IMG/VR virus record: IMGVR_UViG_3300042894_003102
Span: 1-20,457 of that record
DNA: 20,457 nt
Strand: one strand, 5' to 3'
Source: a virus
Made by a program: the position numbers and the translations under genes. The notes below the pieces were generated by a model that saw nothing but the letters and a program-made list of their open reading frames with translations, made no database searches and was not told where the DNA came from. Shown in pieces: positions 1,654-19,979 of the stretch. Position 1 is the first letter of the stretch. Each line of letters begins with the position of its first letter.

Positions 1654-2343
1654 TTAAAGCCCGAATCTTGATTTTGTAGCATTATAGTTTTGGAGGACTT
1701 CTGCTTGAGACAGCACTCTATTATAAATCTGAACACTACCTATAGAACCATTAAATCTTTCACTACCAGCATCAGTTGATCCTATATGAAGGTTAGAAGC
1801 AGAAGTTATGACATTACCTGTTTTACTTATAGAGAATAATAATGATCCGTTTTTATAAACTAAAATATCAGTATTTGATCCATTTTTTCTAAAAACACCA
1901 ACAACACTATGCCATACACCATAGGGAAAGTTTGAAGTACTAACGGATGCTACTTGAAATCCAGATCCAGTATTATAATAAACTTGAAATATACTAGGAG
2001 TAAAATTTATTCCATAGTTTGTAGTAGAATCTCTTTTAGCTATCAAGCCATTTGACCCTGTTGAAGTTATAGAAGTATTAAACCATACACCAAAAGAAAT
2101 ATTATCTACAATATTAATAGAGCTATTATTACCACAATTTACATAATCATTACTTCCATCAAAAACTATACTACCTCCATTAGCAGAACTATAAGTTGGT
2201 CCATTTACCAGCGTTCCATTATTACTATTCCTGCTAATATCAGTCCATACTGTGCCGGAACCACCGTATGATTTAGGTGAACCAGCATCAAGATACATGA
2301 CCAAGCCATCAGTAACTATTTTTGGTGAATGATTAAATGACAT
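1654..2343 (-). CDS. LamG/concanavalin A-like domain virion protein
   Basis: The 229-residue protein looks like a single LamG-type jelly roll. Visible hallmarks in order are GLVMYLDAGSPKSY, WTDISRNSNNGTL, SIVFDGSNDYVNCG, ISFGVWFNT, GVWHSVVGVFRKNG, VYKNGSL, LHIGSTDA and FNGSIGSVQIYNRVLSQAEV. These are the expected strands of the laminin G-like 3 family, which typically binds carbohydrate. There is no signal peptide. In the fibre operon it sits between two structural genes, so a glycan-binding tip or decoration is likely. The ATG at 2343 is 4 nt past the stop of the 2348-3082 gene, consistent with coupled translation; the TTTAAATA just before it is also close to the late octamer. The ligand cannot be predicted. 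Confidence 0.8.
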   Translation of the reverse strand: MSFNHSPKIVTDGLVMYLDAGSPKSYGGSGTVWTDISRNSNNGTLVNGPTYSSANGGSIVFDGSNDYVNCGNNSSINIVDNISFGVWFNTSITSTGSNGLIAKRDSTTNYGINFTPSIFQVYYNTGSGFQVASVSTSNFPYGVWHSVVGVFRKNGSNTDILVYKNGSLLFSISKTGNVITSASNLHIGSTDAGSERFNGSIGSVQIYNRVLSQAEVLQNYNATKSRFGL

Positions 2344-2347
2344 ATAT

Positions 2348-3082
2348 TTAAATTATGGAAGACATGTAGGTTGCGAGGCGGGCGTCAAGAAGTGCCAGGT
2401 TGAGGTTTCCGCCGAGGGAGTAAAAAGACGCACGCCCACCCCAACCAGTGTTGCCGAATGTATCGCGAGCAAAAATTGCAATACCAAAACTGGAAGTTCC
2501 TGTAGAAGCAACGTTTAGCGTAAAACTGGAATTGCCATGGCGGCGAATATAGCTACTTGGCGACGATCTGCTTATTCCGATTAGCCCTGAGGCAGGAGCT
2601 TGATATACATTACCGGAAATGTCATTGCAAGCGGCAGAGGTCCGGTAAATTCGACGCTGTGCGACGCCGGTATTGCTGTTCGATCCAATAAGGCCAACGC
2701 TTGTTCCGCCTCCTGTTTCCGTGACCCAAATCGCTGCGTGGCAGTCGTCTTGCAGGTCCGCGCTGTTCACTCTATTGGTGATAATCCGTCGTCCCCCTCC
2801 ACCCAGTAATCCTGTCGTCCTTGAATAGTCGCCAGAGACAAACAGTCCGCCGCCATTCGTCGGCGCTGGACCAACTAACGGTACTAATGCACCAGCTAAT
2901 GTATCTGGACCAGCAAGCAAACAACTTGCTTTGATAGCACTCCAAATACCATCAGCCTTGCAACCTCTAATAAAAGCAATAACCGCTGCTCTGTTAGTTC
3001 GATTAATGCTGCTTCCCGCTGCTTCAATTCTGCTAAAATAAGCAAGAGCATCAGAATCATGAGTGTTATAATATACTGCCAT
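2348..3082 (-). CDS. Tail-fibre/adhesin protein, paralogue of the left-edge gene
   Basis: The 244-residue protein begins MAVYYNTHDSDALAYFSRIE, followed by AAGSSINRTNRAA, GCKADGIWSAIKASCLLAGP and SGDYSRTTGLLGGGG, all with counterparts in the protein at 1-697. The rest is a Gly/Ser-rich beta-type region without catalytic motifs. The coding sequence is a composite: the first roughly 65 codons (about 2890-3082) are AT-rich like the neighbours, while about 2348-2885 is clearly GC-richer. This suggests that the C-terminal module was swapped onto a resident N-terminus. The start overlaps the upstream stop context (TAATATG), with GGAAGG 5 nt away, although those bases also encode the end of the upstream fibre. 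A receptor-recognition role is inferred. Confidence 0.72.
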   Translation of the reverse strand: MAVYYNTHDSDALAYFSRIEAAGSSINRTNRAAVIAFIRGCKADGIWSAIKASCLLAGPDTLAGALVPLVGPAPTNGGGLFVSGDYSRTTGLLGGGGRRIITNRVNSADLQDDCHAAIWVTETGGGTSVGLIGSNSNTGVAQRRIYRTSAACNDISGNVYQAPASGLIGISRSSPSSYIRRHGNSSFTLNVASTGTSSFGIAIFARDTFGNTGWGGRASFYSLGGNLNLALLDARLATYMSSII

Positions 3083-3083
3083 A

Positions 3084-6000
3084 TTAACCTTCCAATTCTA
3101 CTTCTAACTCAGGTACATCTTTACGAGTACCATAGATTGTGTAATTATAAGATCCTTCGACCCCGCCTATTTTTACTGTTTTATTATTTTGTTCAACAAC
3201 CCATAGATTCATTGATTTACCGATTGGTGTAACCTGAACAGTCACCTTGCTTTCATCAACAAGCCATTCCCAATGATCAGGTAGGATTATAGTCTCTTCT
3301 GAGGTTTTACCTCGAACATAAATACTATGCTCGTTAGACTCTACAACACCGTATTGTAGTTTACCACCCTTTATGGGGTTGTCGATTAAGAATGATTTTG
3401 TAGTAGCGGCTAGATGACCTGATGCTGTTATATTAGCTGCTCTTAGATCGGTAAAACCAGCATCAGCAGCATCTCTGATATCAATCCCTGTTCCGTTTCT
3501 CTTGATAGCTGGGAAACTTGCTGAAGTTCCTCCTAGCTGTATTCTATTGAAATCAGGACTTGTGTTATCAGTGAATGTAACTACACCATTACCGTTTGGA
3601 GTTATATATGTATCACCAGATATACCTGATAATCTAAGTTGAGTTGATGTTACATTAGCAGCTCTGAGATCAGTGAATCCAGATAATGGAGTTGAACCAG
3701 CTGTGGTTTGATCAGCAAGAACTATGTCAATACCGGTACCGTTTCTCTTGATACCAGCAGACTCTGACAACACATTACCACCTAGTTGTAATATATTGAA
3801 ATCATTATTAGCACTGTTAGTTAATCTGAAAAGCCCGTCTGCTGATGAGAAAATTTTGGATCTCTGAGCAATACCTAGAAATGCTGTGTTACTAGTAGTA
3901 GAACTTCCAGCCTGAACGTTGGCTATGCTTTGTATTTGACCACCGGCTTGTACTTGACCACCAATAAAAAGTTCCGAACCAATTCGTACAGTACCACCAA
4001 CACCAACACCACCAGCTACAAGTAATGCTCCTGTAGTAGTGTTTGAAGATGCTGTTGTATCTGTAATCTGTAAGCTATTTACCAACACTCTATCATTAAC
4101 TGATAATGGATTAGCCAAGATTATTGGCCTTGTTCCAATTAAAGCAGGTTGTGGTGTTACTATAAATTCTCTAACAGTATCACCACTACTACCTACATAA
4201 AAACACTTCTGAGCATCATCATTATAATACATGCCTCCCAAGTTAGTATCATTTGCTGTATCTACTGTTCTTCCAACGAAGCTAACATTCTCCAAACTAT
4301 AAGGTGTAGCTAATTTGAACTCGTAAATTCTTATGTTTGTAACTCCTGCTACAAACAAACGGGTACCATTATTATTAAAAGATATATTTCTAAGACCATT
4401 GTCAATGGTGGCAGCAATCAAGTAACTTGTTACAAGAGTCATGGTTGATGCTAAGTCCCATGCCAAATTCAGCGAGATTTCGTATATACGGTTAGTAAAA
4501 TCATCACAAACAAACAATTTCAAACCATCTGGACTAAATTCAAGACCACGGGGGTCAAATGAAGCACCAGCAGGCATTCCTGATATTGTTGTTAGTACTT
4601 TTGTTTGCCCAGCATCTAAAGTAGCTGTAGATACATCCCAAGCTGATGTTAAAGAATAACGACCGACTCTATCACCTGTAGAGTCAAGTATAAACATCAT
4701 TAAACCATCACTCGTAAAATACATAGCAGTAGGCGCTCCACCAGTTGCTGTAACCAAAGCACTTCCAGATAATACACCAGTTGTTGTATCCCAAGGCGTG
4801 TCTAAAATATAGCGATAAACACTGTCATTTATTTGCCCAGTTACAAACATGTATGAACCATCAGGACTAAATGTTAATCCCTGTGGTTGTGATTCTGCAA
4901 CGGGTAATTCATTTGTTCCACGAACCCATGTTCTTATGTCCGTTGATCTTGTAAGCATTCCGTCTGTTCCAGTCACATCATACTCAGGAGAATTGATAAT
5001 GCCAGAAGCGCTTAGGTTTCCAGTTAGAGAAACTCCGTTCGTAGCCCTTAAGTTAATATTTGGAGCTATAAGATCTATTTTATCACTAACAAAAGTTCTG
5101 AATTCAACACCACCGTCGAAGTTAACACTATCACCTACCGTCAAAAATCCATCTACATTTAAATCACCATCTAAAGTTCCACCGCTTAAAGGTAGATAAT
5201 CACCAGATACTCCTCCACCTCCTCCGCCAGACAGTCCTAGATACTGAGAAGCGGAAATGGTGCCAAAAACAGTTAGATTACCATTCATCACACCCCCATT
5301 GGCGAACTGTTGAGCAACAGAACCACCACCAGACATCATCTCCATCATTCTCTTAAGAGACATTACCTCTGTAGAGAATTTTGTTGTTATAGACTTTTCT
5401 AGCTCTAGTTTAACTTTCTTAAGATCAATTGTTTGATTTAATCCATCTTTACGTTCGATGATTATATTAGGTACATCAGTCTTTATTTCGCTGATTGTCT
5501 GTAATAGTGAATTCTTACTCTCTGTAATTAAGTCAATACACGACTGTTTATTCTCTTCGCTTAGTAAATTAACTTTATCATTAATATTATCTAGCTTTAC
5601 ATCGTAGAACTTTGTTATACGATCTTCAGCGAGTGTTATATTATTCTGAATAGCGTTAATTTCTTTTGCTATACTATCATCAATTTGCTTCTTAACGTTA
5701 CCTACTCTACTAAGTACTTTGTTTATATTACGTGTAATAGCATCGTTTAACTCTACATTAGCACGCTCTAGAGAAACTAGATTTGTATTATGTTGATCTA
5801 CAGTCTCATTAACTTCAACTCGTAATTGATCAATCTCTTTTGAAACAGTGTTATTAATATTCTTTACTTCAGAACTAATAGTCTTCTTAGCATTTCGAGA
5901 TAACACTTCAATGTTTTCTGAGAGAAGCTTGCCTACTGTATCTGATGCAAATTTAGATATTTTTTCTGAAAATTGCGTGTAAGCTTCTTCTGACTTTGAA

Positions 6001-7080: not shown

Positions 7081-8019
7081 TTACTGCTTAGGAGTCTTTA
7101 TATGAGCAAAAGTTGGATCTTGCAAATAACTGTGTAGTAGAGAACTATCTGAAGCCCGCTCAGGATTAATATCAATACCTCCACGTCGAGCATAGAGACA
7201 CCTCACACACAATTCATCAGGTGCTAGAGCATCCCACAATCTCTTGTATATTGCTTCGCAAATTTCTTCATGGAAATGACACTCATCACGAAATGATACG
7301 ATATATTGAAGTAGAGATATAGGATCAACAGTCTTTTTACCTTTAATATAGATATAAACATCACCCCAGTCGGGTTGAGATGTAACACGGCAATTAGACT
7401 TTAGTAAGGTACTATGATAGTAAACTTCATCTATTTCTGAATCTAACACTTTTAACAGTTCAGGAGTTTCGTTATAAACAGAGAACTCAACACCTTCAAC
7501 AGGATAGACATCTTCAATAGTAAGATACTCTCTAATGTGTCTATCATCAAGCTGCCACTCATCCGCTACTCCGATGACGTCTGTAGTTGCTATCACATGA
7601 CTATTACTAGCAATACGAACCTTTACATCTACTTCAAGAAGATCAGATAAATCAGCAATTACTTGCTTAGTAATATTCTCACGAACTTCAGCAGCAGTAG
7701 CGCCGAGACGAGTCATGTTATACGAATTAAAATAAAGCTTAATCGACTTAGATTCAACAATATACTTACCGCTACACGGATATACAATCTTTGCAATACC
7801 TGTAACAGGTAATCCTTGATTAGTGAGAGCGGATACTTCATACGCGTTCCACGTATCATTTCCAACAAATGGTAGATCATCATCATTAATATTCAGGTGT
7901 GTTCGATTTGACTGCCTTGGCTCGCGTACTAGCAAAGATCTATCATAGGTAGATTTATACTGCGATGTTTGACCGAGATGCTTACTAATTCTAGAGTTAT
8001 CTAGTGTTTGTGACTTCAT
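7081..8019 (-). CDS. queF: QueF, 7-cyano-7-deazaguanine (preQ0) reductase
   Basis: This enzyme reduces the nitrile of preQ0 to the aminomethyl group of preQ1, using NADPH, in the cytoplasm. The 312-residue protein is full length for the two-domain (E. coli-like) QueF type. Visible residues: substrate motif ESKS at 89-92 followed by IKLYFNSYN; catalytic Cys210 in LLKSNCRVTSQPDWG with Asp217; FHE at 249-251; and a C-terminal RRGGIDINP. All match the E. coli enzyme as I remember it. It is the last gene of the minus-strand DpdA-formyltransferase-kinase-QueF block and is followed by a strong terminator. A TATAATATA element lies 4 nt upstream of the ATG. In a phage next to a DpdA-like gene, it most likely makes preQ1 for DNA modification rather than for tRNA queuosine. 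Confidence 0.95.
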   Translation of the reverse strand: MKSQTLDNSRISKHLGQTSQYKSTYDRSLLVREPRQSNRTHLNINDDDLPFVGNDTWNAYEVSALTNQGLPVTGIAKIVYPCSGKYIVESKSIKLYFNSYNMTRLGATAAEVRENITKQVIADLSDLLEVDVKVRIASNSHVIATTDVIGVADEWQLDDRHIREYLTIEDVYPVEGVEFSVYNETPELLKVLDSEIDEVYYHSTLLKSNCRVTSQPDWGDVYIYIKGKKTVDPISLLQYIVSFRDECHFHEEICEAIYKRLWDALAPDELCVRCLYARRGGIDINPERASDSSLLHSYLQDPTFAHIKTPKQ

Positions 8020-8023
8020 ATGC

Positions 8024-8032
8024 TATATTATA
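8024..8032 (-). promoter_or_regulatory. TATAATATA element before queF
   Basis: The minus strand reads AAGTATATAATATAGCAT immediately before the ATG at 8019. The TATAATATA core recurs before the kinase, DpdA-like, ThyX and 20061 genes. It is probably an early/middle -10-type element. Confidence 0.4.
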
Positions 8033-8035
8033 TAC

Positions 8036-8599
8036 TTAAATGTTAATTTCAAGACCCTTTTCTTTTAAAACTTTCTGTATTGTCTCTAATCTTGCTGTAA
8101 CATCACCTTTTAATATTACTGCATTTATACCAAAATCATTTATATAAGAGTTAAAGAGCTTAATGATATCATCTCGAAATTGTACATTTATGCTTCGTTC
8201 GCCATCATCTTCAAGAACAACATCATCAGGTGATGTATAGAATATCACATCATACTTAGAAATAGTAGCTTTAAAGATTAGACTAGCGAGGCTATATACA
8301 CCCATACTTACTGCCTTACGATCACAAAGCCAGTGTGTATAAACTAACCCATCTAGAGAGCATCTATCAAGAATGTAAGGTACTTGACCTATATCATTTT
8401 TAAGAGCGTTACGTAAATGCTCTCCCATGATCATTGTTTGTGTTATATCATTACCATCTTCATTAATAGGTAAATTATAATCACGTTTGATAAGTCTTGT
8501 TACTTCAGGTACAAATGATACGTGATTATTTTTTTGCTGGAGGAGTTTAAGAAGAGTTGTCTTACCAGAACATTGAGGACCACTAAAAGAAATTAACAT
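8036..8599 (-). CDS. P-loop nucleoside/nucleotide kinase-like protein (AAA_28/NadR-like)
   Basis: The 187-residue protein opens with a Walker A motif, GPQCSGKTT at residues 7-15. Glu32 lies in VPEVTRLI, LDRCSLDGLVYTHW fits a substrate-side Asp-Arg motif, DVIFYTSPDD ends a beta strand of the P-loop core, and DDGERSINVQFRDDI could be the lid. This pattern fits the AAA_28 group of small kinases (NadR and thymidylate-kinase relatives). The substrate is not evident. It lies between the formyltransferase (6-nt gap) and queF (16-nt gap), with its own TATAATATA element 2 nt before the ATG, so it may be expressed with the 7-deazaguanine genes. It could be a general dNMP/nucleoside kinase or could act on a modification intermediate; the latter is speculation. 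Confidence 0.75.
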   Translation of the reverse strand: MLISFSGPQCSGKTTLLKLLQQKNNHVSFVPEVTRLIKRDYNLPINEDGNDITQTMIMGEHLRNALKNDIGQVPYILDRCSLDGLVYTHWLCDRKAVSMGVYSLASLIFKATISKYDVIFYTSPDDVVLEDDGERSINVQFRDDIIKLFNSYINDFGINAVILKGDVTARLETIQKVLKEKGLEINI

Positions 8600-8601
8600 A
8601 A

Positions 8602-8610
8602 TATATTATA
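8602..8610 (-). promoter_or_regulatory. AAAG-TATAATATA element before kinase gene
   Basis: AAAGTATAATATA lies on the minus strand and TATAATATA ends 2 nt before the ATG at 8599. The same 13 bases precede thyX. Confidence 0.45.
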
Positions 8611-9148
8611 CTTTATTTTTGAAAAAACTCAACCAAGAATCTAGAGATGTTTTACGTAGCTCACTATATGTATCATCAAGCGATGTACACTGCGTAGATA
8701 AAACTCTCTTACTTTCGATAATTTCACCTCCGTCAACTTCAGGTACGACTCGGTGTATGACACTACCTACATACATATATGTTGCAATATTATCCCATGT
8801 TCGTACTTGCGGATCTTTACCTTTAAGCTCGGGATAAACAGTAATAAGTCCTGGATGCCCGTTATAAATTTCATACTTACTACACACACTTTTTGGAACA
8901 ATATTCAACCAACCGTGTAGTGTTATGACATCGTAATCGTCAAGAACATCGTGATATGATTCCTTTTGCGACTTAGTTAATGTTTTATATTGACCAAAGA
9001 TAGCTTTTTTAGAGTTACCAATTCTACTATCTGTTCGCGGTAAACCTAAAACATTATCTGATATAACAAGATCAGGATATCTACCTATTTGTTCTGAAAT
9101 ATTACAAATTTCAGAACCTGACTGTGAGTATAATGCAGCCCATTTCAT
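8606..9148 (-). CDS. dpdN: Formyltransferase, likely dPreQ1 N-formyltransferase (DpdN-like)
   Basis: The 180-residue protein has the formyltransferase (PurN/Fmt N-terminal) fold signature: ITLHGWLNIVPKSVCSKY, then YNGHPGLITVYPELKGKDP with Asn96 and His98, then VGSVIHRVVPEVDGGEII with Asp139. These correspond to the catalytic Asn-His-Asp of E. coli PurN (N106, H108, D144). 10-Formyl-tetrahydrofolate is the expected donor. The N-terminal phosphate-loop region is degenerate (SQSGSEI), so the natural purine substrate GAR is unlikely. The ATG overlaps the stop of the DpdA-like gene by 4 nt (ATGA), a sign of coupled expression. From memory, DpdN is the name given to a phage enzyme formylating preQ1 in DNA; neighbours DpdA and QueF make that the best assignment. 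An alternative is a formyltransferase for a sugar nucleotide. Confidence 0.72.
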   Translation of the reverse strand: MKWAALYSQSGSEICNISEQIGRYPDLVISDNVLGLPRTDSRIGNSKKAIFGQYKTLTKSQKESYHDVLDDYDVITLHGWLNIVPKSVCSKYEIYNGHPGLITVYPELKGKDPQVRTWDNIATYMYVGSVIHRVVPEVDGGEIIESKRVLSTQCTSLDDTYSELRKTSLDSWLSFFKNKV

Positions 9149-9948
9149 TGTTTAGTAATTTTCTTAAATTCTGCAACGTTAAAGCTAATATCAATAGCCT
9201 GCTCAGGAGTGACATCATGGTCAATTAAATCAGCAAGTAAAATCGAAGGTTTATCTTGTAAACCATAGTTTGCTATATATCTTTGATTTAAAATACCTGC
9301 AACAACGGGATTAGAAGTATCTACAGATCTTATACTTTTGATATCTGAATATGCAGAAAATTCTCGAGCTAAGGAGCAGCCTAGTAGATGGTGAGGCTTA
9401 TCATGATTCCAAATTCCGTCTCGGATTAGTGCAGAGATAAGCCATCGACGACCACTACACATACGTTCCAGTTTAGCTACTCTAGGATCATGACTAAATG
9501 ATAACCCGACTTGCTGATACCACGAAAAGTCAAATGAGATTGCAATATAGTCTGCGTTCTCTGACATAAACTTATAGCACTTTACAATATCTTCATATGT
9601 TTGACCTTGAACAGCACCAATCCATAAACCAGGTAGATGTCGGTAAGTATCTCGAAATTTAATATAGCTCGTAATAGTAGCCTTTGAATCCTCGAGAACA
9701 TCAGGTACAATAAAATAAGTCGGCTTGAGCTCCATGATGTACTTTGCGTATTTGTCTGGATCAAAAGCTGTTTTAAGTTCAAAGATAGAATTATCAAGTA
9801 ACACTTCCCTATCATTTAACAGCGATGATTTAAAGAATGAATAATATTCAGGATGCGTCTCAAACAAATGAACAAGCGCATAATCATAATCATTATAGTA
9901 TATCGATTCAGAAAGAAAGCTGATCGGCGTTTCGTGAGATATTAGCAT
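9145..9948 (-). CDS. dpdA: DpdA-like DNA guanine transglycosylase (TGT fold)
   Basis: The 267-residue protein resembles tRNA-guanine transglycosylases in the order of its barrel motifs. LLDNSIFEL with Asp52 takes the place of SDSGGFQ, VPDVLED holds Asp83, and AVQGQT at 112-117 fits the IVQGG strand. HHLLGCS at 186-192 fits the MGVG turn. SVDTSNP with Asp210 fits the FDCVxPTR nucleophile region. TGT-like phage proteins of the DpdA family exchange guanine in DNA for a 7-deazaguanine. I chose the ATG at 9948. A frame-mate ATG at 10050 would run through the divergent promoter and the start of the plus-strand baseplate gene, and the extra 34 residues are low-complexity. A TATAATATA element lies 4 nt upstream of 9948. 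The TGT zinc-site cysteines are not obvious, as expected for a shortened DpdA. Confidence 0.78.
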   Translation of the reverse strand: MLISHETPISFLSESIYYNDYDYALVHLFETHPEYYSFFKSSLLNDREVLLDNSIFELKTAFDPDKYAKYIMELKPTYFIVPDVLEDSKATITSYIKFRDTYRHLPGLWIGAVQGQTYEDIVKCYKFMSENADYIAISFDFSWYQQVGLSFSHDPRVAKLERMCSGRRWLISALIRDGIWNHDKPHHLLGCSLAREFSAYSDIKSIRSVDTSNPVVAGILNQRYIANYGLQDKPSILLADLIDHDVTPEQAIDISFNVAEFKKITKQ

Positions 9949-10737: not shown

Positions 10738-12306
10738 ATGTCAGAGCCCTTAGACCTCCAGTATCAGAATAAATTTACTTTCAATCAACGCGGTGGAGCT
10801 ATAGAAATTAATAATTCTACAGAACGCGAGGAAGTACAAATATCGCAATTTAGTGGATCTAATATACTTCTTTCTAATGTTGTAACAAGTGAATTAGCGA
10901 CAAATAATAAGCAAACTAAAGTGTTGTTTGATGAGTTTAAAACTGTAGGTCACACTCTTAATGAATTCACAGGAAAAGATCGTAATACAAGAACAGGTCA
11001 AAATACCTATGATATAAAAGGAGCGCAAACTCAATCGGAGATAAATGCATTCACAACATGGCGTGAAGCTTATAGAGATCTTGCTAATATTAACGCTGAG
11101 TTTTGGATCAATAGAGGTGGAGTGAGTTACCCTGATATAGTACCTGTATCCACACCCTTAGACGGAACCAGAGCGCCAAACCCAGATTTAAATGTTACGC
11201 GACTTATAGTAGAAAATAATTTCTCAGGTTACTCAGGTATACCAACTGTAACAAAGAGTACTAATGAAGTTACATTATATGTAAAGGTGCCTGATGCTGG
11301 TAGAACTGTAGATGCTACAACAAAGGCACCTACACCTGCCGATATTGTATCTACGTTTGGTGAACCTGGGTCACGTGCACCAGGGGTAATACAGTATGGT
11401 GGTGTTATATCATCTGCAACACAAGACGGTCAGTGGAATTCTAATACTGATAAACAAGAATTGAAAGATAACGTTATAGAACGTCAACCAAGTTTATTAG
11501 ATATTGAAAAACAAATGGGAAATGGTGGTGATGAGATTGAGTTTGTAAAGCGTCACAAAATTACTAACATTGGAGCTTCAATTAATAATTATCCGTCTGT
11601 AAGAGTAGATAAGCAAGGACGATCACAAACAACAGAAATTGGTGTTGCTCCTACAGGTACATTTCTACATAATGACTTTATATCTCATGTTGAAGTTGTT
11701 GATAACAGTTCTACATACCCTTGCGGTAATCACGATTTAGTTGTTGCTAATAAATATAATGTTGTTGTCGGTTCAGGTGGGGTTCAAATTAAAACATCAG
11801 GACCTCTTACACTTAACGGTACAGATGTAAGGTTAGGAGCAGTTAAACTTACAGTAAGCTCATCAGATGGTACAACAATCGGTAGTGAGACAAGTATAGA
11901 TTTATTAGCTCCTAAAATACAAATAAGATCTAATAGACAAGTTTTAGTTGATAGTGCTCTTGGAGTTAAGAATAATTTAATAGTCGGTGGAGCTTTTTTC
12001 GTAGAAGGTGAATTATATGTCAATCATATAACAGCTCCTATAGAAGCTCAAGAGACTGAACCGACTATAGTTTACGGGGAACCTGTTGCAGGTAAAATTA
12101 TAGGATATGCGGGTGCAGTACCTGTTATAGGTGTTGCTACTCCTGATTCAATAGTAATGTACAATCATACACACCACTTTAATAATATACCTTTAACCTT
12201 GTTAAACAGCAATTCAGATGTACGAATTGCCGCTCAACAAGCTGGAATTAATAACCCTGAAACATTGACCGCTGCTCGTAAGCAAGATCACGCTCACAAA
12301 GGTTAA
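10738..12306 (+). CDS. Baseplate central spike, gp5 beta-helix-like, with His-rich tip
   Basis: This is a 522-residue protein. Residues 1-190 are polar and unassigned. From about 330 on, short beta-strand repeats appear (HDLVVANKYNVVVGSGGVQI, GPLTLNGTDVRLGAVKLTV, SIDLLAPKIQIRSNRQVLV, NNLIVGGAFFVEGELYV). These are typical of a trimeric beta-helix such as the gp5 C-terminus or VgrG. Near the end it has MYNHTHHFNNIPL, and it finishes DHAHKG. Clustered H-x-H residues at the apex are known to bind iron in other phage spikes (P2 gpV, phi92 gp138). There is no lysozyme domain. The gene follows the OB-fold gene by 9 nt and meets clpP tail to tail with a few shared bases. A membrane-piercing spike is the best inference. 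Confidence 0.72.
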   Translation: MSEPLDLQYQNKFTFNQRGGAIEINNSTEREEVQISQFSGSNILLSNVVTSELATNNKQTKVLFDEFKTVGHTLNEFTGKDRNTRTGQNTYDIKGAQTQSEINAFTTWREAYRDLANINAEFWINRGGVSYPDIVPVSTPLDGTRAPNPDLNVTRLIVENNFSGYSGIPTVTKSTNEVTLYVKVPDAGRTVDATTKAPTPADIVSTFGEPGSRAPGVIQYGGVISSATQDGQWNSNTDKQELKDNVIERQPSLLDIEKQMGNGGDEIEFVKRHKITNIGASINNYPSVRVDKQGRSQTTEIGVAPTGTFLHNDFISHVEVVDNSSTYPCGNHDLVVANKYNVVVGSGGVQIKTSGPLTLNGTDVRLGAVKLTVSSSDGTTIGSETSIDLLAPKIQIRSNRQVLVDSALGVKNNLIVGGAFFVEGELYVNHITAPIEAQETEPTIVYGEPVAGKIIGYAGAVPVIGVATPDSIVMYNHTHHFNNIPLTLLNSNSDVRIAAQQAGINNPETLTAARKQDHAHKG

Positions 12307-12947
12307 ATTATACTATCAACAAGACCAAACTCAAGACACTTCTGCGAATCAAACCACAAGTCGTGCTTGAGTATCTCGTCAATTTGCTTCATAGGTACTT
12401 TGGTATACTTCTTGTAAATCTCTTTAATGATAAACATCAATCGCTTATTGTTTTCCATATCATCTTCCATCTCTGTAAATTTACCATATACACCACCAGA
12501 GAGTTGATGAATAAGCATTAGAGAGTGTCTACCAATAAATCTCTTCTTACCTATTACGGATATAAGCGTAGCTGCTGAAGCAGCAGCACCATCGATATAT
12601 GTATGAACCTCTGAGCTTAGATTACGAATAGTATCAACAACAGCTAGACCAGCAAAAAGAGAGCCGCCATAAGAGTTAATTCTTAACTTAATGTGTGGTA
12701 CGAATTCTGAACCTAAGAAGTTAGCAGTAACTTTAAGTTTATTATCTACTTCATACAATGCTTGATTTAAATCAAGTACAGATTGCTCTGTAACATCAGC
12801 GTAGAAAAATATCGTATTCTCTACTACCCTGACATTAGGACCAGAAGACATTCCGCTATTACCTTGTGAAGCAATATAGATTTGAGGTGAAACCTGCGGT
12901 TCACTTGGTTCATCTTCTGATAGTATGTACTTATAGTTACGTTTCAT
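12303..12947 (-). CDS. clpP: ClpP-like serine protease (family S14)
   Basis: The 214-residue protein has a ClpP core after an about 40-residue extension without homology clues. Residues 91-100 NSYGGSLFAG equal the ClpP INSPGGSVTAG loop. Ser124 in DGAAASAATLI is the nucleophile, His147 in LMLIHQLSGG the base, and Asp196 in KHDLWFDS probably the third member; the C-terminus EFGLVDSII is typical. The catalytic triad therefore seems intact. It sits at the end of the nrdB-nrdA operon, not beside capsid genes, so a prohead-protease role is not supported by context. It may cooperate with host Clp ATPases, or replace host ClpP, during infection (inference). There is no Shine-Dalgarno sequence; the ATG follows the upstream stop by 7 nt. 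Confidence 0.9.
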   Translation of the reverse strand: MKRNYKYILSEDEPSEPQVSPQIYIASQGNSGMSSGPNVRVVENTIFFYADVTEQSVLDLNQALYEVDNKLKVTANFLGSEFVPHIKLRINSYGGSLFAGLAVVDTIRNLSSEVHTYIDGAAASAATLISVIGKKRFIGRHSLMLIHQLSGGVYGKFTEMEDDMENNKRLMFIIKEIYKKYTKVPMKQIDEILKHDLWFDSQKCLEFGLVDSII

Positions 12948-13283: not shown

Positions 13284-13291
13284 TATTTATG
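13284..13291 (-). promoter_or_regulatory. Late-promoter-like octamer CATAAATA
   Basis: CATAAATA on the minus strand, then TATTA, then the ATG at 13278. It overlaps the last codons of nrdA. It matches TATAAATA at 7 of 8 positions and has the 5-nt spacing seen elsewhere. Confidence 0.45.
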
Positions 13292-14933
13292 CTTCACAAC
13301 TTGCGCAATTAAGAATTGATCGTGCGAGTTCTTGTGCAGGGTTAGCAGAGCGTTGATAGTAAAGAGACTTAATACCTTGCTCCCAAGCAAATATTAATAA
13401 TTCGTTTACATCCTTAGGCTTAGTAAGAGGTGCTATAGTTAAGTTAAGTGATTGACCTTGATCTATCCACTTCTGTCTTTGAGCAGCTTGTATAATAATT
13501 TCTTTCTGAGAAATTTCACCGAATGTCTTAAACACATCTTTTTCTGTTTGAGAAAGAAAATCTAGATGTTGAACAGAGCCACCATGCACAAGAATATCTT
13601 TCCAAACATCTTGTGTGTCTTTACCCTTACTCTTAAGTAGGTTTTCAAGATGAGGATTTTTATGAGTAAATTTACCCTTAGCTAAATCCTTTACAAAGTA
13701 GTTACTATTGAGAGGTTCAATAGAAGGTGATACTTGACCTAGAATAAATGAACTAGATGTTGTGGGAGCAATAGCAATTAGAGTTGTATTGCGTTTGCCA
13801 TAACCTTCGAGCAATGGTGGTTCACCAAACATATGAGCTAATGAACCAGTCGCAATATCACACAGTGTACGTATATGCTTGAATATTTCTATGTTACGCA
13901 TTTTAGCTTCCATAGATTCAAACGGAATCATTTTTGATTGTAGATATGAATGCCATCCGAGAACTCCTACACCTAAAGCGCGTTGATTAACAGCAAACTT
14001 ACGAGGTGCAGCCATATGCTTATCACCTTCAGTCTTTTCAATAAACTCAGACATTACAGCGTCCAAGAAATACACAAGTGTTTCTACTGCATCTGTTGTT
14101 TTAATTTCATCCCATAACTCTAAGTTAAGCGATGATAAATCACACACAAACGACTCATCATCACTTGTAGATAAGAAGATTTCCGTGCATAGATTTGAAG
14201 CATTAATTCTAAGACCTTTATCTTTATAAACCTGAGGTGCATTATTATTAGCAGTATCTGAGAAGAATATATAAGGGTATCCTGATTCGAAACGCTTCTT
14301 AATAACTTGACCCCAGATCTTACGCTTATCTTTATCACCATCAACCATGGAACTCATCCATTCATCTGATACACAGACACCAATAGATAGGTTTTGAATA
14401 GCATTTCCTTCTGATCGAATCTTAAGGAACTCTTCAATATCAGGATGGTCTATAGGTAAATAAGCAGCAAAGGAACCTCTACGTACATTACCTTGAGATA
14501 CATAATCAATAAGAGAGTCAAATACAGTTAACTGATGATGAACACCAGTAGCGTTACCTCCTGTAGATATAGGCGCTCCACGACCACGAACAGCACCGAA
14601 ATAAGCAGAAGTTCCACCGCCTACTTTTGACATAGTACCTACTTCACTTAACTTATCTAAGATAAGTTCCATATCATCAGGTATAAAGCTACCGAAGCAT
14701 GAAATAGGTAAACCACGCTTCCTACCAAAATTAGACCATATCGGTGACGATAGAGAGTAAAACCCTCTACTCATATAGTCTTCAAACTTAGTAGCAAAGC
14801 CATCAATACCTAATAGATCTTCTGCTCTCTTACTAATGTCTAGAATACGTTGTTCTGGTGTTTCGTTAGATTCTAAATACCCCCTCTCAAGAAACTTTCT
14901 TGAGTCCTTGTTAAGCCACTTATATTTCGTCAT
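13287..14933 (-). CDS. nrdA: Class I ribonucleotide reductase, large subunit, no ATP-cone
   Basis: This subunit reduces ribonucleotides to deoxyribonucleotides with NrdB. In the 548-residue chain all key sites are visible: Cys79 in PISCFG and Cys264 in FVCDLSSLNLE (redox pair), Asn247-x-Cys249-x-Glu251 in SNLCTEI (thiyl radical site), Tyr525-Tyr526 in SLYYQRS (radical transfer), and Cys543/Cys546 in the C-terminal NCASCEA, which re-reduces the site. It is far shorter than E. coli NrdA (about 760) because the N-terminal ATP-cone is missing, so the overall activity switch by dATP/ATP should be absent. Its ATG lies 5 nt after the nrdB stop. The short form with the CEA tail recalls Bacteroidota-type NrdA (recollection). 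Confidence 0.95.
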   Translation of the reverse strand: MTKYKWLNKDSRKFLERGYLESNETPEQRILDISKRAEDLLGIDGFATKFEDYMSRGFYSLSSPIWSNFGRKRGLPISCFGSFIPDDMELILDKLSEVGTMSKVGGGTSAYFGAVRGRGAPISTGGNATGVHHQLTVFDSLIDYVSQGNVRRGSFAAYLPIDHPDIEEFLKIRSEGNAIQNLSIGVCVSDEWMSSMVDGDKDKRKIWGQVIKKRFESGYPYIFFSDTANNNAPQVYKDKGLRINASNLCTEIFLSTSDDESFVCDLSSLNLELWDEIKTTDAVETLVYFLDAVMSEFIEKTEGDKHMAAPRKFAVNQRALGVGVLGWHSYLQSKMIPFESMEAKMRNIEIFKHIRTLCDIATGSLAHMFGEPPLLEGYGKRNTTLIAIAPTTSSSFILGQVSPSIEPLNSNYFVKDLAKGKFTHKNPHLENLLKSKGKDTQDVWKDILVHGGSVQHLDFLSQTEKDVFKTFGEISQKEIIIQAAQRQKWIDQGQSLNLTIAPLTKPKDVNELLIFAWEQGIKSLYYQRSANPAQELARSILNCASCEA

Positions 14934-14938
14934 AAAAA

Positions 14939-15925
14939 TTAAAAAAGGTCGTCTTCGTCGAATGATTGATTCTTCTTAGAGTATTCAGTGGGCCTACTAT
15001 GAAAAAAATCTGCCATATTATTACCATGAAGCTCTTCTTCGAACCACATAGTAGACTCTAGTAGACCTTTATCTACTTCGAAAACAGGTTTGAATTTAAT
15101 TTGTTCTAGTGATATATTAATACGATTTTTAATAAACTCTTTCAAAATAGGAGCTGTTAGGCCTGTCTCTTGAATACCATTTACCATCCAATCAACTATT
15201 TTAGATTCAGATTTAAATGCCTCTTCTGCTTCGTGTGCGATTCTAGCTTCTAATTCTTCATCAAATAACTCAGGGTGTTCTTCACGTATAGTATTAATAA
15301 GCTTCATACCTACAAGAGCATGAATATTTTCTTCATTACGTGTATACTTGACTTGCTGATCTGTATCCTTTAGTACATTTTTAAATCTTGCAAACCAATT
15401 AATAATATAGAATTGAGAGAATAGAGAAACGTTTTCAACAAATAGAGTAAAGAGAATTAAAGCGTATAGATACTGCTTCTTAGCATCTTTGTAGAACTTA
15501 CGTGTATACTTTCTAAGATACTTAACTCTACCTTGAATCCATTCTAATTTAAGATTTTCTTCAAATATATCTTCTAGATCTAGAATCTTTAACAAGCGTT
15601 CGTATGCGTTATTATGAATAACTTCTATATTAGCCATAACATAACCGAGATCCTGCAAGGAAGGATGCGGTAAGTTATCTCCAAGCTTAGCCCAGAAAGT
15701 CTTTACAGCAACTTCAATTTGACCAATTGCAGATAAAGTACGTACTATAATTTCTCTCTCTTGATCGTTAAGATCAACTTTAAATTGTTGTACGTCTGAC
15801 TTGAAGGAGAACTCTTTATCAGTCCAGAAACCATTATGCATAGCTTCAATAAATTGCTCGGTCCACGGATACCTATCAGGTTTCCGACTAATTTGTTCTT
15901 CGAAAATGCTATACTCTAATGACAT
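14939..15925 (-). CDS. nrdB: Class I ribonucleotide reductase, small subunit
   Basis: This is the di-metal radical subunit of RNR, 328 residues. Ligands are visible as Glu71 in GQIEVAVKTFW (where E. coli has Asp84), Glu101 and His104 with radical Tyr108 in IEVIHNNAYERLL, Glu164 in FVENVSLFSQF, and Glu199 and His202 in RNEENIHALVG. The C-terminus SKKNQSFDEDDLF is the NrdA-docking tail. The QIEVAVKTFW, VENVSLFSQF and SFxEDDLF strings resemble Bacteroidota NrdB sequences as I remember them. No N-terminal ATP-cone is present. It is the first gene of nrdB-nrdA-unknown-clpP. An AGTAAATA octamer lies 7 nt upstream of the ATG, which is unexpected for a nucleotide-metabolism gene and may be chance. 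Confidence 0.95.
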   Translation of the reverse strand: MSLEYSIFEEQISRKPDRYPWTEQFIEAMHNGFWTDKEFSFKSDVQQFKVDLNDQEREIIVRTLSAIGQIEVAVKTFWAKLGDNLPHPSLQDLGYVMANIEVIHNNAYERLLKILDLEDIFEENLKLEWIQGRVKYLRKYTRKFYKDAKKQYLYALILFTLFVENVSLFSQFYIINWFARFKNVLKDTDQQVKYTRNEENIHALVGMKLINTIREEHPELFDEELEARIAHEAEEAFKSESKIVDWMVNGIQETGLTAPILKEFIKNRINISLEQIKFKPVFEVDKGLLESTMWFEEELHGNNMADFFHSRPTEYSKKNQSFDEDDLF

Positions 15926-16550: not shown

Positions 16551-16982
16551 TTACTCCCAAGGAAAATCTAACCACGCATCGTTAGCAATTGATATACCAT
16601 AATAGTCTACATACTGCGCACTAGAGTCACGTACAAATAAACTAGCAAATTCAAACTTATTTGCTTCTGTATCAAATATTTGTTTGAATATCTTAAATGT
16701 ATTACCTGAGTCGCATATATCATCTACAACAAGATACTTACCACCTTTAGGTAAAAGGTCAGGTCTTTGATATACTACATATGCATCATCTCTTACAACT
16801 CCTGTATAAGTTGCAACACCAAAAGATATAACCTTTTTATTAAGCTTATATGCAAGCATAGTTGCTGGAATTAATCCACCACGTCCTACACCAATAATGT
16901 AGTCATAGTCTGTTTGAACACGATCTGCAAGTAGATCTACTATAAAGTTTAGGTATTCGAAACTAACAGCTTTCTTCTGCAT
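16551..16982 (-). CDS. Xanthine-guanine phosphoribosyltransferase-like enzyme
   Basis: Type I phosphoribosyltransferase of 143 residues. Visible motifs: YIIGVGRGGLIPATMLAYKL at about 29-48 (the PRPP-loop-1 region), the PRPP signature YLVVDDICDSGNTF at about 83-96 with the paired Asp residues, and a C-terminal NDAWLDFPWE that parallels the QDTWIEQPWD of E. coli Gpt. It should join guanine, xanthine or hypoxanthine to PRPP, giving the nucleotide. It is the first gene of a short minus-strand operon, with the two small unknowns following at 6-nt spacing and 4-nt overlap. A DpdA-type enzyme frees guanine from DNA, so a phage guanine-salvage enzyme fits well, but ordinary purine salvage is equally possible. 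Confidence 0.85.
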   Translation of the reverse strand: MQKKAVSFEYLNFIVDLLADRVQTDYDYIIGVGRGGLIPATMLAYKLNKKVISFGVATYTGVVRDDAYVVYQRPDLLPKGGKYLVVDDICDSGNTFKIFKQIFDTEANKFEFASLFVRDSSAQYVDYYGISIANDAWLDFPWE

Positions 16983-19217: not shown

Positions 19218-19979
19218 TTATACTTTCTTTAAATGTTTCCAACTAACAGGGAACAACTTAGATGCAATTTCATCAATCTGCTCTGCCACAACCCGTGTCT
19301 CCTTTTGAGTATCCTTCTTAAGTCGTAGATTACAAACTCTGGCAAATGCAATCAGAGAACCACTCCAATACCACTCTGTCATCATGTTCTGTGGTAGAAC
19401 CATTCTAGCTTGCTCAGGACACACACCAGCATCTAGCAATAGATGATATGTATCAACACAAGCTCCTACTGTTCTTTCAACTAGGTTACGAGTTGTAATA
19501 TTCTCAGCGGGCCAAAGATCACCATTAAAGTCCCTACAAATTAGATTTTGATGTTCAATATTTTCTACAAATTGATCTTCGTGTGATCCTTGTTTCTTAT
19601 CTTTATTTCTAGCTCTCCAATTTTCTGGATAGTAGAACGCTGGTGGTGAGTCTACATAACGACGAGATACTTCATTCCATACAAGACCAACTTGATGCTT
19701 ACCAAGTTGACGGGCTACAAATAACGGAGCCTTAACATGGAAAGAAATAGAAGCATGGCCGAAGGGTGTCCAGTGATTTTCTCTGGCAAGGAATGCAATA
19801 AGTTTCTCATCTCCCGATTTTAAATTCTTAGGCACCTTTGTAGTTGTTATGGTTCTAAAGTCTAGATCAACATCTTCCACATATTCATATTCCCAATCAG
19901 ATGCTTTATCAAATGATACTCTCGCTGCATTTACAACAGAGAGATCTGATCCCATATAATCTACTAACTTAACATTCAT
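19218..19979 (-). CDS. thyX: ThyX, FAD-dependent thymidylate synthase
   Basis: This enzyme makes dTMP from dUMP with methylene-tetrahydrofolate, FAD and NADPH. The 253-residue protein shows HWTPFGHASISFHVKAPLFV (family HxxPFxHxxxxFxxxxP strand), then RQLGKHQVGLVWNEVSRRYV at about 90-109, which stands where most ThyX have RHRxxSxNExSxRY, and later PEQARMVLPQNMMTEWYWSG and Arg in CNLRLKKDTQKETR. The signature is a variant: RHR is replaced by KHQ and the spacing to the Asn-Glu is longer by one. This is probably a phage subtype, since the rest is conserved. The gene converges on the spanins and carries AAAGTATAATATA 8 nt upstream of its ATG, like the kinase gene. Confidence 0.93.
   Translation of the reverse strand: MNVKLVDYMGSDLSVVNAARVSFDKASDWEYEYVEDVDLDFRTITTTKVPKNLKSGDEKLIAFLARENHWTPFGHASISFHVKAPLFVARQLGKHQVGLVWNEVSRRYVDSPPAFYYPENWRARNKDKKQGSHEDQFVENIEHQNLICRDFNGDLWPAENITTRNLVERTVGACVDTYHLLLDAGVCPEQARMVLPQNMMTEWYWSGSLIAFARVCNLRLKKDTQKETRVVAEQIDEIASKLFPVSWKHLKKV

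Follow-up and report, generated by a model that had tools for sequence, protein, structure and literature searches.

At which stage do phages that carry 7-deazaguanines in their DNA exchange the guanine, and what does a kinase do beside the exchanging enzyme? The question is raised by a viral DNA of 20,457 nucleotides, IMG/VR record IMGVR_UViG_3300042894_003102 (positions 1 to 20,457; hereafter the window), in which genes for a guanine exchanger of the tRNA-guanine transglycosylase (TGT) fold, a formyltransferase, a P-loop kinase and the nitrile reductase QueF are consecutive minus-strand open reading frames (ORFs), all intact (Table 1). It bears on how some phages replace every guanine whereas phages with DpdA1-type exchangers replace only part. 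The four-gene set is almost certainly a guanine base-exchange module. The module itself is a further case of a known kind and not unique, Flavobacterium phage vB_FspM_immuto_2-6A (immuto) being the closest isolate. The kinase, whose role was not addressed in a preliminary description of this DNA, is the most regular partner of the exchanger. Comparison with related loci favours, at a probability of roughly one half, exchange on deoxyguanosine monophosphate (dGMP) before replication, followed by rephosphorylation.

The exchanger (267 amino acids counted from the ATG) has no confident match to a Pfam family and no significant match to the PDB by sequence; its relation to the TGTs is visible only from the fold. 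In an AlphaFold model built from 65 relatives (mean predicted local distance difference test score, pLDDT, 96.6), all 50 PDB matches listed are tRNA-guanine transglycosylases (best E 1.5e-8, probability 1.00). By sequence similarity the protein is a member of the CP220/immuto DpdA family, which we take to be DpdA3, with 48% identity to the immuto DpdA and 44-45% to gp056 of Campylobacter phage CP220 over 99% of its length. Residue conservation, taken over 95 to 134 aligned relatives depending on the protein, is strict: D83, Q114, R167, H187, G190 and D210 are kept in 130/130 relatives of the exchanger and D52 in 129/130, the remaining one having a gap. D52, D210 and H187 align with D72, D215 and H196 of the DpdA of Enterobacteria phage 9g. 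R167 was considered as a family-specific phosphate-binding residue and dropped, as DpdA1 seems to have a conserved Arg there too. The exchanger is linked genomically to 7-deazaguanine synthesis by QueF in the same operon, a protein with both QueF_N (6e-32) and QueF (4e-23) domains far above cut-off and with C210, D217, H250, E251 and the ESKS-x-K motif kept in 127/127 relatives. Intergenic gaps are 6 bases between formyltransferase and kinase and 16 bases between kinase and QueF. The preliminary description had named four minus-strand genes in a row with an ATGA overlap, a P-loop kinase among them, a QueF-kinase-formyltransferase-DpdA module, a TGT fold for the exchanger with Asp52 and Asp210, Cys210/Asp217/His250 in QueF, and Asn96-x-His98 and Asp139 in the formyltransferase; the ORF coordinates, domain matches, fold, conserved operon and invariant residues bear out each of these. 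The absence of a TGT fold from the structure prediction would have contradicted that description, which withstood this check.

The kinase matches AAA_28 (PF13521) at 1.2e-17, and in profile searches thymidylate kinase (TMK), NadR and deoxynucleoside kinase (dNK). Its AlphaFold model (pLDDT 92.5) matches the structures of NadR, deoxynucleoside kinases (deoxycytidine kinase) and thymidylate kinases, and the GxxxxGKTT positions of the P-loop are invariant among relatives. Scans of viral contigs returned 536 relatives with the exchanger as query and 368 with the formyltransferase, and contigs of uncultivated phages that contain the module run to hundreds. In most of the approximately 200 IMG/VR loci fetched the order is exchanger, optional formyltransferase, kinase and QueF, and since immuto shares it too, this order is far beyond chance. 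Of the 96 unique exchangers whose downstream sequence spans 4.5 kb or more, 94 are followed by an AAA_28 kinase and the other two by DUF3310; a formyltransferase is present at 65 of these loci and QueF at 95. Where the main family is without AAA_28 (loci L110, L122, L140 and L143), DUF3310 fills the exact slot of the kinase, between formyltransferase and QueF. Small P-loop ORFs outside the kinase family number 5 of 3,538 in the fetched loci.

More distant exchanger lineages of the superfamily have kinases of other families. A T4 gp1-type deoxynucleoside monophosphate (dNMP) kinase (DNMK) adjoins the exchanger in Aeromonas phage Ahp1, Vibrio phage D479 and locus L205, with a weak match of this type near the exchanger of Vibrio phage Bakedbeans; T4 gp1 acts on deoxynucleotides and is a dGMP kinase. 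The Ahp1 genome also holds a canonical full gp1 elsewhere, so that its exchanger-linked kinase is an addition. In the remaining Ahp1-type loci with flanking sequence, DUF3310 stands in place of DNMK. An AAA_18 P-loop protein lies upstream of the exchanger in Cellulophaga phage phiST, Chryseobacterium phage MA9V-3 and related loci; in one of these, L231, it is fused to an unknown domain. A TMK/dNK-like protein is encoded near the exchanger of Bacillus phage BSTP12 and a similar P-loop protein near that of Weizmannia phage Youna2, and in both phages the gene for DNA polymerase A immediately follows that for the exchanger. T7 gp1.7 belongs to DUF3310 (Pfam 4.5e-23; E 8e-5 in a one-pass profile search), and the literature describes it as phosphorylating dGMP and dTMP (PMC7693777, PMC12846349). 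In Rhizobium phage RHph_I1_18 one protein comprises both exchanger (residues 1-294, E 1e-103) and DUF3310 (residues 334-419, E 3.6e-36). This protein (EVB91_073, L252:4001-5269) is annotated only as a DUF3310 protein, and a DCD/dUTPase-like gene directly follows it. When the kinase types (NadR/dNK-like, T4 gp1-type dNMP kinase, T7 gp1.7-type DUF3310, AAA_18 and TMK-like) are placed on a tree of 58 exchangers, seven changes are needed, the minimum being five. Literature searches, several key papers lying outside their reach, found no mention of the kinase partnership or of the exchanger-DUF3310 fusion, which together suggest a new variation in the way 7-deazaguanines come to be in DNA.

Some further loci of these lineages merit separate record. 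The exchanger of BSTP12 (BSTP12_038, L201:7896-8684) carries the wrong annotation NadR, and its counterparts in sister phages are mislabelled integrase or polynucleotide kinase. The adjoining BSTP12 DNA polymerase has an N-terminal uracil-DNA-glycosylase-like domain. In L231 (5096-5980) and L232 (approximately 2300-3300) a protein near the exchanger is a fusion in which a P-loop kinase-like domain follows an unknown domain that carries an HRH motif. The L231 protein was considered as a QueD-kinase fusion and rejected, its N-terminal part being unmatched by two QueD profiles despite a resemblance.

Three known systems place the module. In immuto (gp206-gp202, NC_055915) exchanger, formyltransferase, kinase and QueF follow in the same order on a single strand, at identities to the window's proteins of 48%, 42%, approximately 35% and 46%; the existing annotation names DpdA and QueF among them. 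Immediately upstream, immuto but not the window has genes for QueD, QueE, FolE and a phosphoribosyltransferase and a PRA-PH/MazG-like gene; the module of the window is surrounded by nrdAB, thyX and tail genes. The Campylobacter firehammerviruses CP220 and CPt10 have, like the window, a homologous exchanger followed directly by a homologous AAA_28 kinase; unlike the window they have no formyltransferase, and no QueF beside the exchanger, and their product is dADG. In CP220 and CPt10, 100% of dG is reported replaced by dADG (PMC8306585), complete replacement in firehammerviruses being stated also in PMC10273834. A study of 2019 (PMC6884629) did not recognise a DpdA in these Campylobacter phages and weighed two other sources, a modified dGTP and a 2'-deoxyribosyltransferase that had escaped detection. 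The CP220 gene immediately upstream of the exchanger, gp055 (L004:13543-14574), encodes an HD-domain plus AAA_33 protein that could belong to the pathway. DpdA1 phages such as 9g share with the window a TGT-type exchanger with aligned catalytic positions and genes for 7-deazaguanine synthesis, but the exchanger sequences are hardly similar (hhalign probability 57%), modification is partial and no nucleotide kinase is linked. A small P-loop gene within three genes of the exchanger was found at 0/8 parsed DpdA1-type loci, where the exchangers are flanked by preQ0 genes and replication genes. Nine DpdA1-type genomes contain no DUF3310, DNMK, TMK or above-cut-off AAA_28 anywhere, AAA_18 not having been searched genome-wide. 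With the 9g DpdA as query the viral-contig scan returned only seven relatives, and with the Bacillus exchanger none. Cui et al. in 2023 reportedly named DpdA3, with complete replacement, and the formyltransferase DpdN; compared by description and not by sequence, the functions expected here are alike.

In the favoured mechanism QueF would reduce preQ0 to preQ1, and the exchanger would swap the guanine of a deoxyguanosine substrate, most likely dGMP, for the 7-deaza base. The formyltransferase would add a formyl group to the aminomethyl arm, yielding (formylamino)methyl-7-deazaguanine, the kinase would rephosphorylate the modified nucleotide, and a DNA polymerase would then incorporate the product. 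Four points of this scheme are inferred: dGMP as substrate of the exchanger, the modified nucleotide as substrate of the kinase, the sequence of the steps and the chemical nature of the product. Exchange at the precursor level is favoured because a kinase-family gene recurs beside the exchanger, two of its families having known dGMP kinases, and rephosphorylation of modified dGMP for the polymerase would explain complete replacement. It is about an even call that all CP220/immuto-family exchangers act on dGMP before replication with an interchangeable, sometimes fused, deoxynucleotide kinase, so that replacement would be a precursor-level pathway throughout. T4 (dCTPase, gp42 and gp1) and the Z-genome phages (MazZ and PurZ) work in parallel fashion: the base of a dNMP is altered, a kinase and a polymerase follow, and replacement is complete. 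The families differ, and base alteration there is by hydroxymethylation or amination, whereas base exchange by a transglycosylase is proposed here. The trait of a kinase linked to the base-altering enzyme recurs as a kinase-family gene at 96/96 unique loci, in other lineages and in one fusion. Competing dGTP could be removed by MazG-like or DCD/dUTPase-like gene products, which lie near 24 and 12 unique main-family exchangers respectively, never both at one locus; such a step is speculative, since neither gene lies near 96 further unique exchangers, those of the window's lineage among them. DCD/dUTPase-like genes (PF22769) stand beside or near many exchangers (L205 to L229, L203, L252, L253, L204 and L231).

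The published view for DpdA generally, repeated in reviews, is insertion after replication (PMC12707154, PMC12783734); guanine would be swapped in finished DNA and the kinase would merely supply dNTPs or recycle host DNA, a possibility to be taken seriously although short of even odds. The exchanger has the fold and catalytic residues of DNA- and tRNA-acting relatives, and in T4 and T7 kinases of this kind serve the supply of precursors in general. Cui et al. in 2023 are said to have concluded post-replicative insertion, and Crippen et al. in 2019 reportedly saw no dADG phosphates in infected Campylobacter. Exchange on dGMP is weakened by further points. The 96 loci share ancestry, so that independent recruitments of a kinase come to only about five to seven, and the AAA_18, TMK-like and Bakedbeans DNMK matches are weak. 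The NadR/dNK-like kinases could be nucleoside kinases, and the short DUF3310 proteins, which lack the N-terminal part of T7 gp1.7, are only putative kinases. Brevundimonas phages have no kinase beside the exchanger, their dNMP kinase lying approximately 7 kb away. Charge and size, tried as a sign of DNA binding and uninformative, do not separate the CP220/immuto family from DpdA1 proteins, which are equally acidic and little longer. The mechanism is predicted from genomic comparison. Against exchange in finished DNA stand the recurrence of unrelated kinase families at the exchanger, with one DUF3310 domain fused to it, the absence of these kinases from DpdA1 phages, and the general gp1 kinase that Ahp1 already has elsewhere. 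A transglycosylase acting on finished DNA frees guanine and not a nucleotide, therefore leaving no work for a dNMP kinase, whereas exchange on dGMP would call for a kinase that accepts the altered nucleotide. The shifting kinase families and the fusion reduce the question to whether the exchanger takes dGMP. If it does, a widespread phage enzyme family would be reclassified, an enzymatic route to 7-deaza-dGTPs would be at hand, and insertion of 7-deazaguanines would no longer be regarded as solely post-replicative; guanine replacement would be a precursor-level pathway like that of T4 hydroxymethylcytosine or the Z genome, here probably with formylated preQ1.

Other roles for the kinase and the module are harder to reconcile with the data. 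Phosphorylation of GMP could raise GTP for FolE and thereby preQ0, one GTP being spent per replaced base; FolE, QueD and QueE are nearby in many relatives, and phosphoribosyltransferases recur. This is improbable, as T7 gp1.7 and T4 gp1 act on deoxynucleotides, and DpdA1 phages run the FolE pathway without these kinases. Still further down the scale is a module that boosts queuosine in host tRNA instead of modifying phage DNA. QueF and a TGT-fold enzyme do occur in tRNA queuosine synthesis, and such boosting was considered for phages without DpdA (PMC6884629), but the nearest proteins to the window's exchanger are those of CP220 and immuto, guanine modification in CP220 DNA is complete, and no tRNA TGT is matched by sequence.

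A doubt of another kind concerns the product only and overlaps the preceding alternatives: the formyltransferase may act not on preQ1 but, for example, in sugar or purine metabolism, leaving plain preQ1 as the final base. Its match to Formyl_trans_N (PF00551) is above cut-off at 4.5e-7, the solved structures closest by sequence are sugar and glycinamide ribonucleotide formyltransferases with weak E-values, and it is missing from 31/96 related modules, approximately one third. Plain preQ1 is nonetheless unlikely, given N96, H98 and D139 invariant in 95/95 relatives and a gene that sits within the operon of exchanger, kinase and QueF, where starts overlap at many loci. The protein is 42% identical to immuto gp204. 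Formylated preQ1 is the best guess because QueF, formyltransferase and exchanger with intact active sites share a conserved operon, and a final base of the (formylamino)methyl-7-deazaguanine type is, on this gene content, probable. One contig (that of L068, G008) has a module without formyltransferase and a different formyltransferase-like gene at 46135-46404 (PF00551 1.2e-18). In L217 a polypeptide deformylase gene (7607-8113, 5.7e-35) lies shortly downstream of exchanger, DUF3310 and a DCD-like gene. As to preQ0, the preliminary description expected it from the host or from elsewhere in the genome. The closest large relative, the L005 contig (121,925 bases; exchanger 75% identical to that of the window), has QueC, QueD and FolE elsewhere on the contig, so that preQ0 is probably phage-made; the second source is thereby supported, and supply by the host becomes an unneeded assumption.

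Table 1. Features of the base-exchange module and a possibly associated gene in the window.
Feature	Position	Strand	Basis
TGT-fold guanine exchanger, CP220/immuto DpdA family	9145..9948	-	Homology, AlphaFold fold match, conserved residues
ATGA overlap of exchanger stop and formyltransferase start	9145..9148	-	4 bases, from ORF coordinates; translational coupling
Formyltransferase (Formyl_trans_N), candidate preQ1 N-formyltransferase, DpdN-like	8606..9148	-	PF00551, homology to immuto gp204, N96/H98/D139
AAA_28 P-loop nucleotide or nucleoside kinase, NadR/dNK/TMK-like	8036..8599	-	PF13521, PDB matches, constant partner of exchanger
Two-domain QueF nitrile reductase, preQ0 to preQ1	7081..8019	-	QueF_N and QueF Pfam domains, active-site residues
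Purine-type phosphoribosyltransferase	16551..16982	-	PF00156 4.6e-9; similar genes near module in many relatives

Around the module, the phosphoribosyltransferase might, speculatively, salvage the released guanine. The genes nrdA/nrdB and thyX, at 13287-15925 and 19218-19979, are on the module strand, an arrangement that recurs in close relatives such as L007. A ClpP-like protease gene (12303-12947, PF00574 4.5e-29) lies between a baseplate-like region and nrdA.

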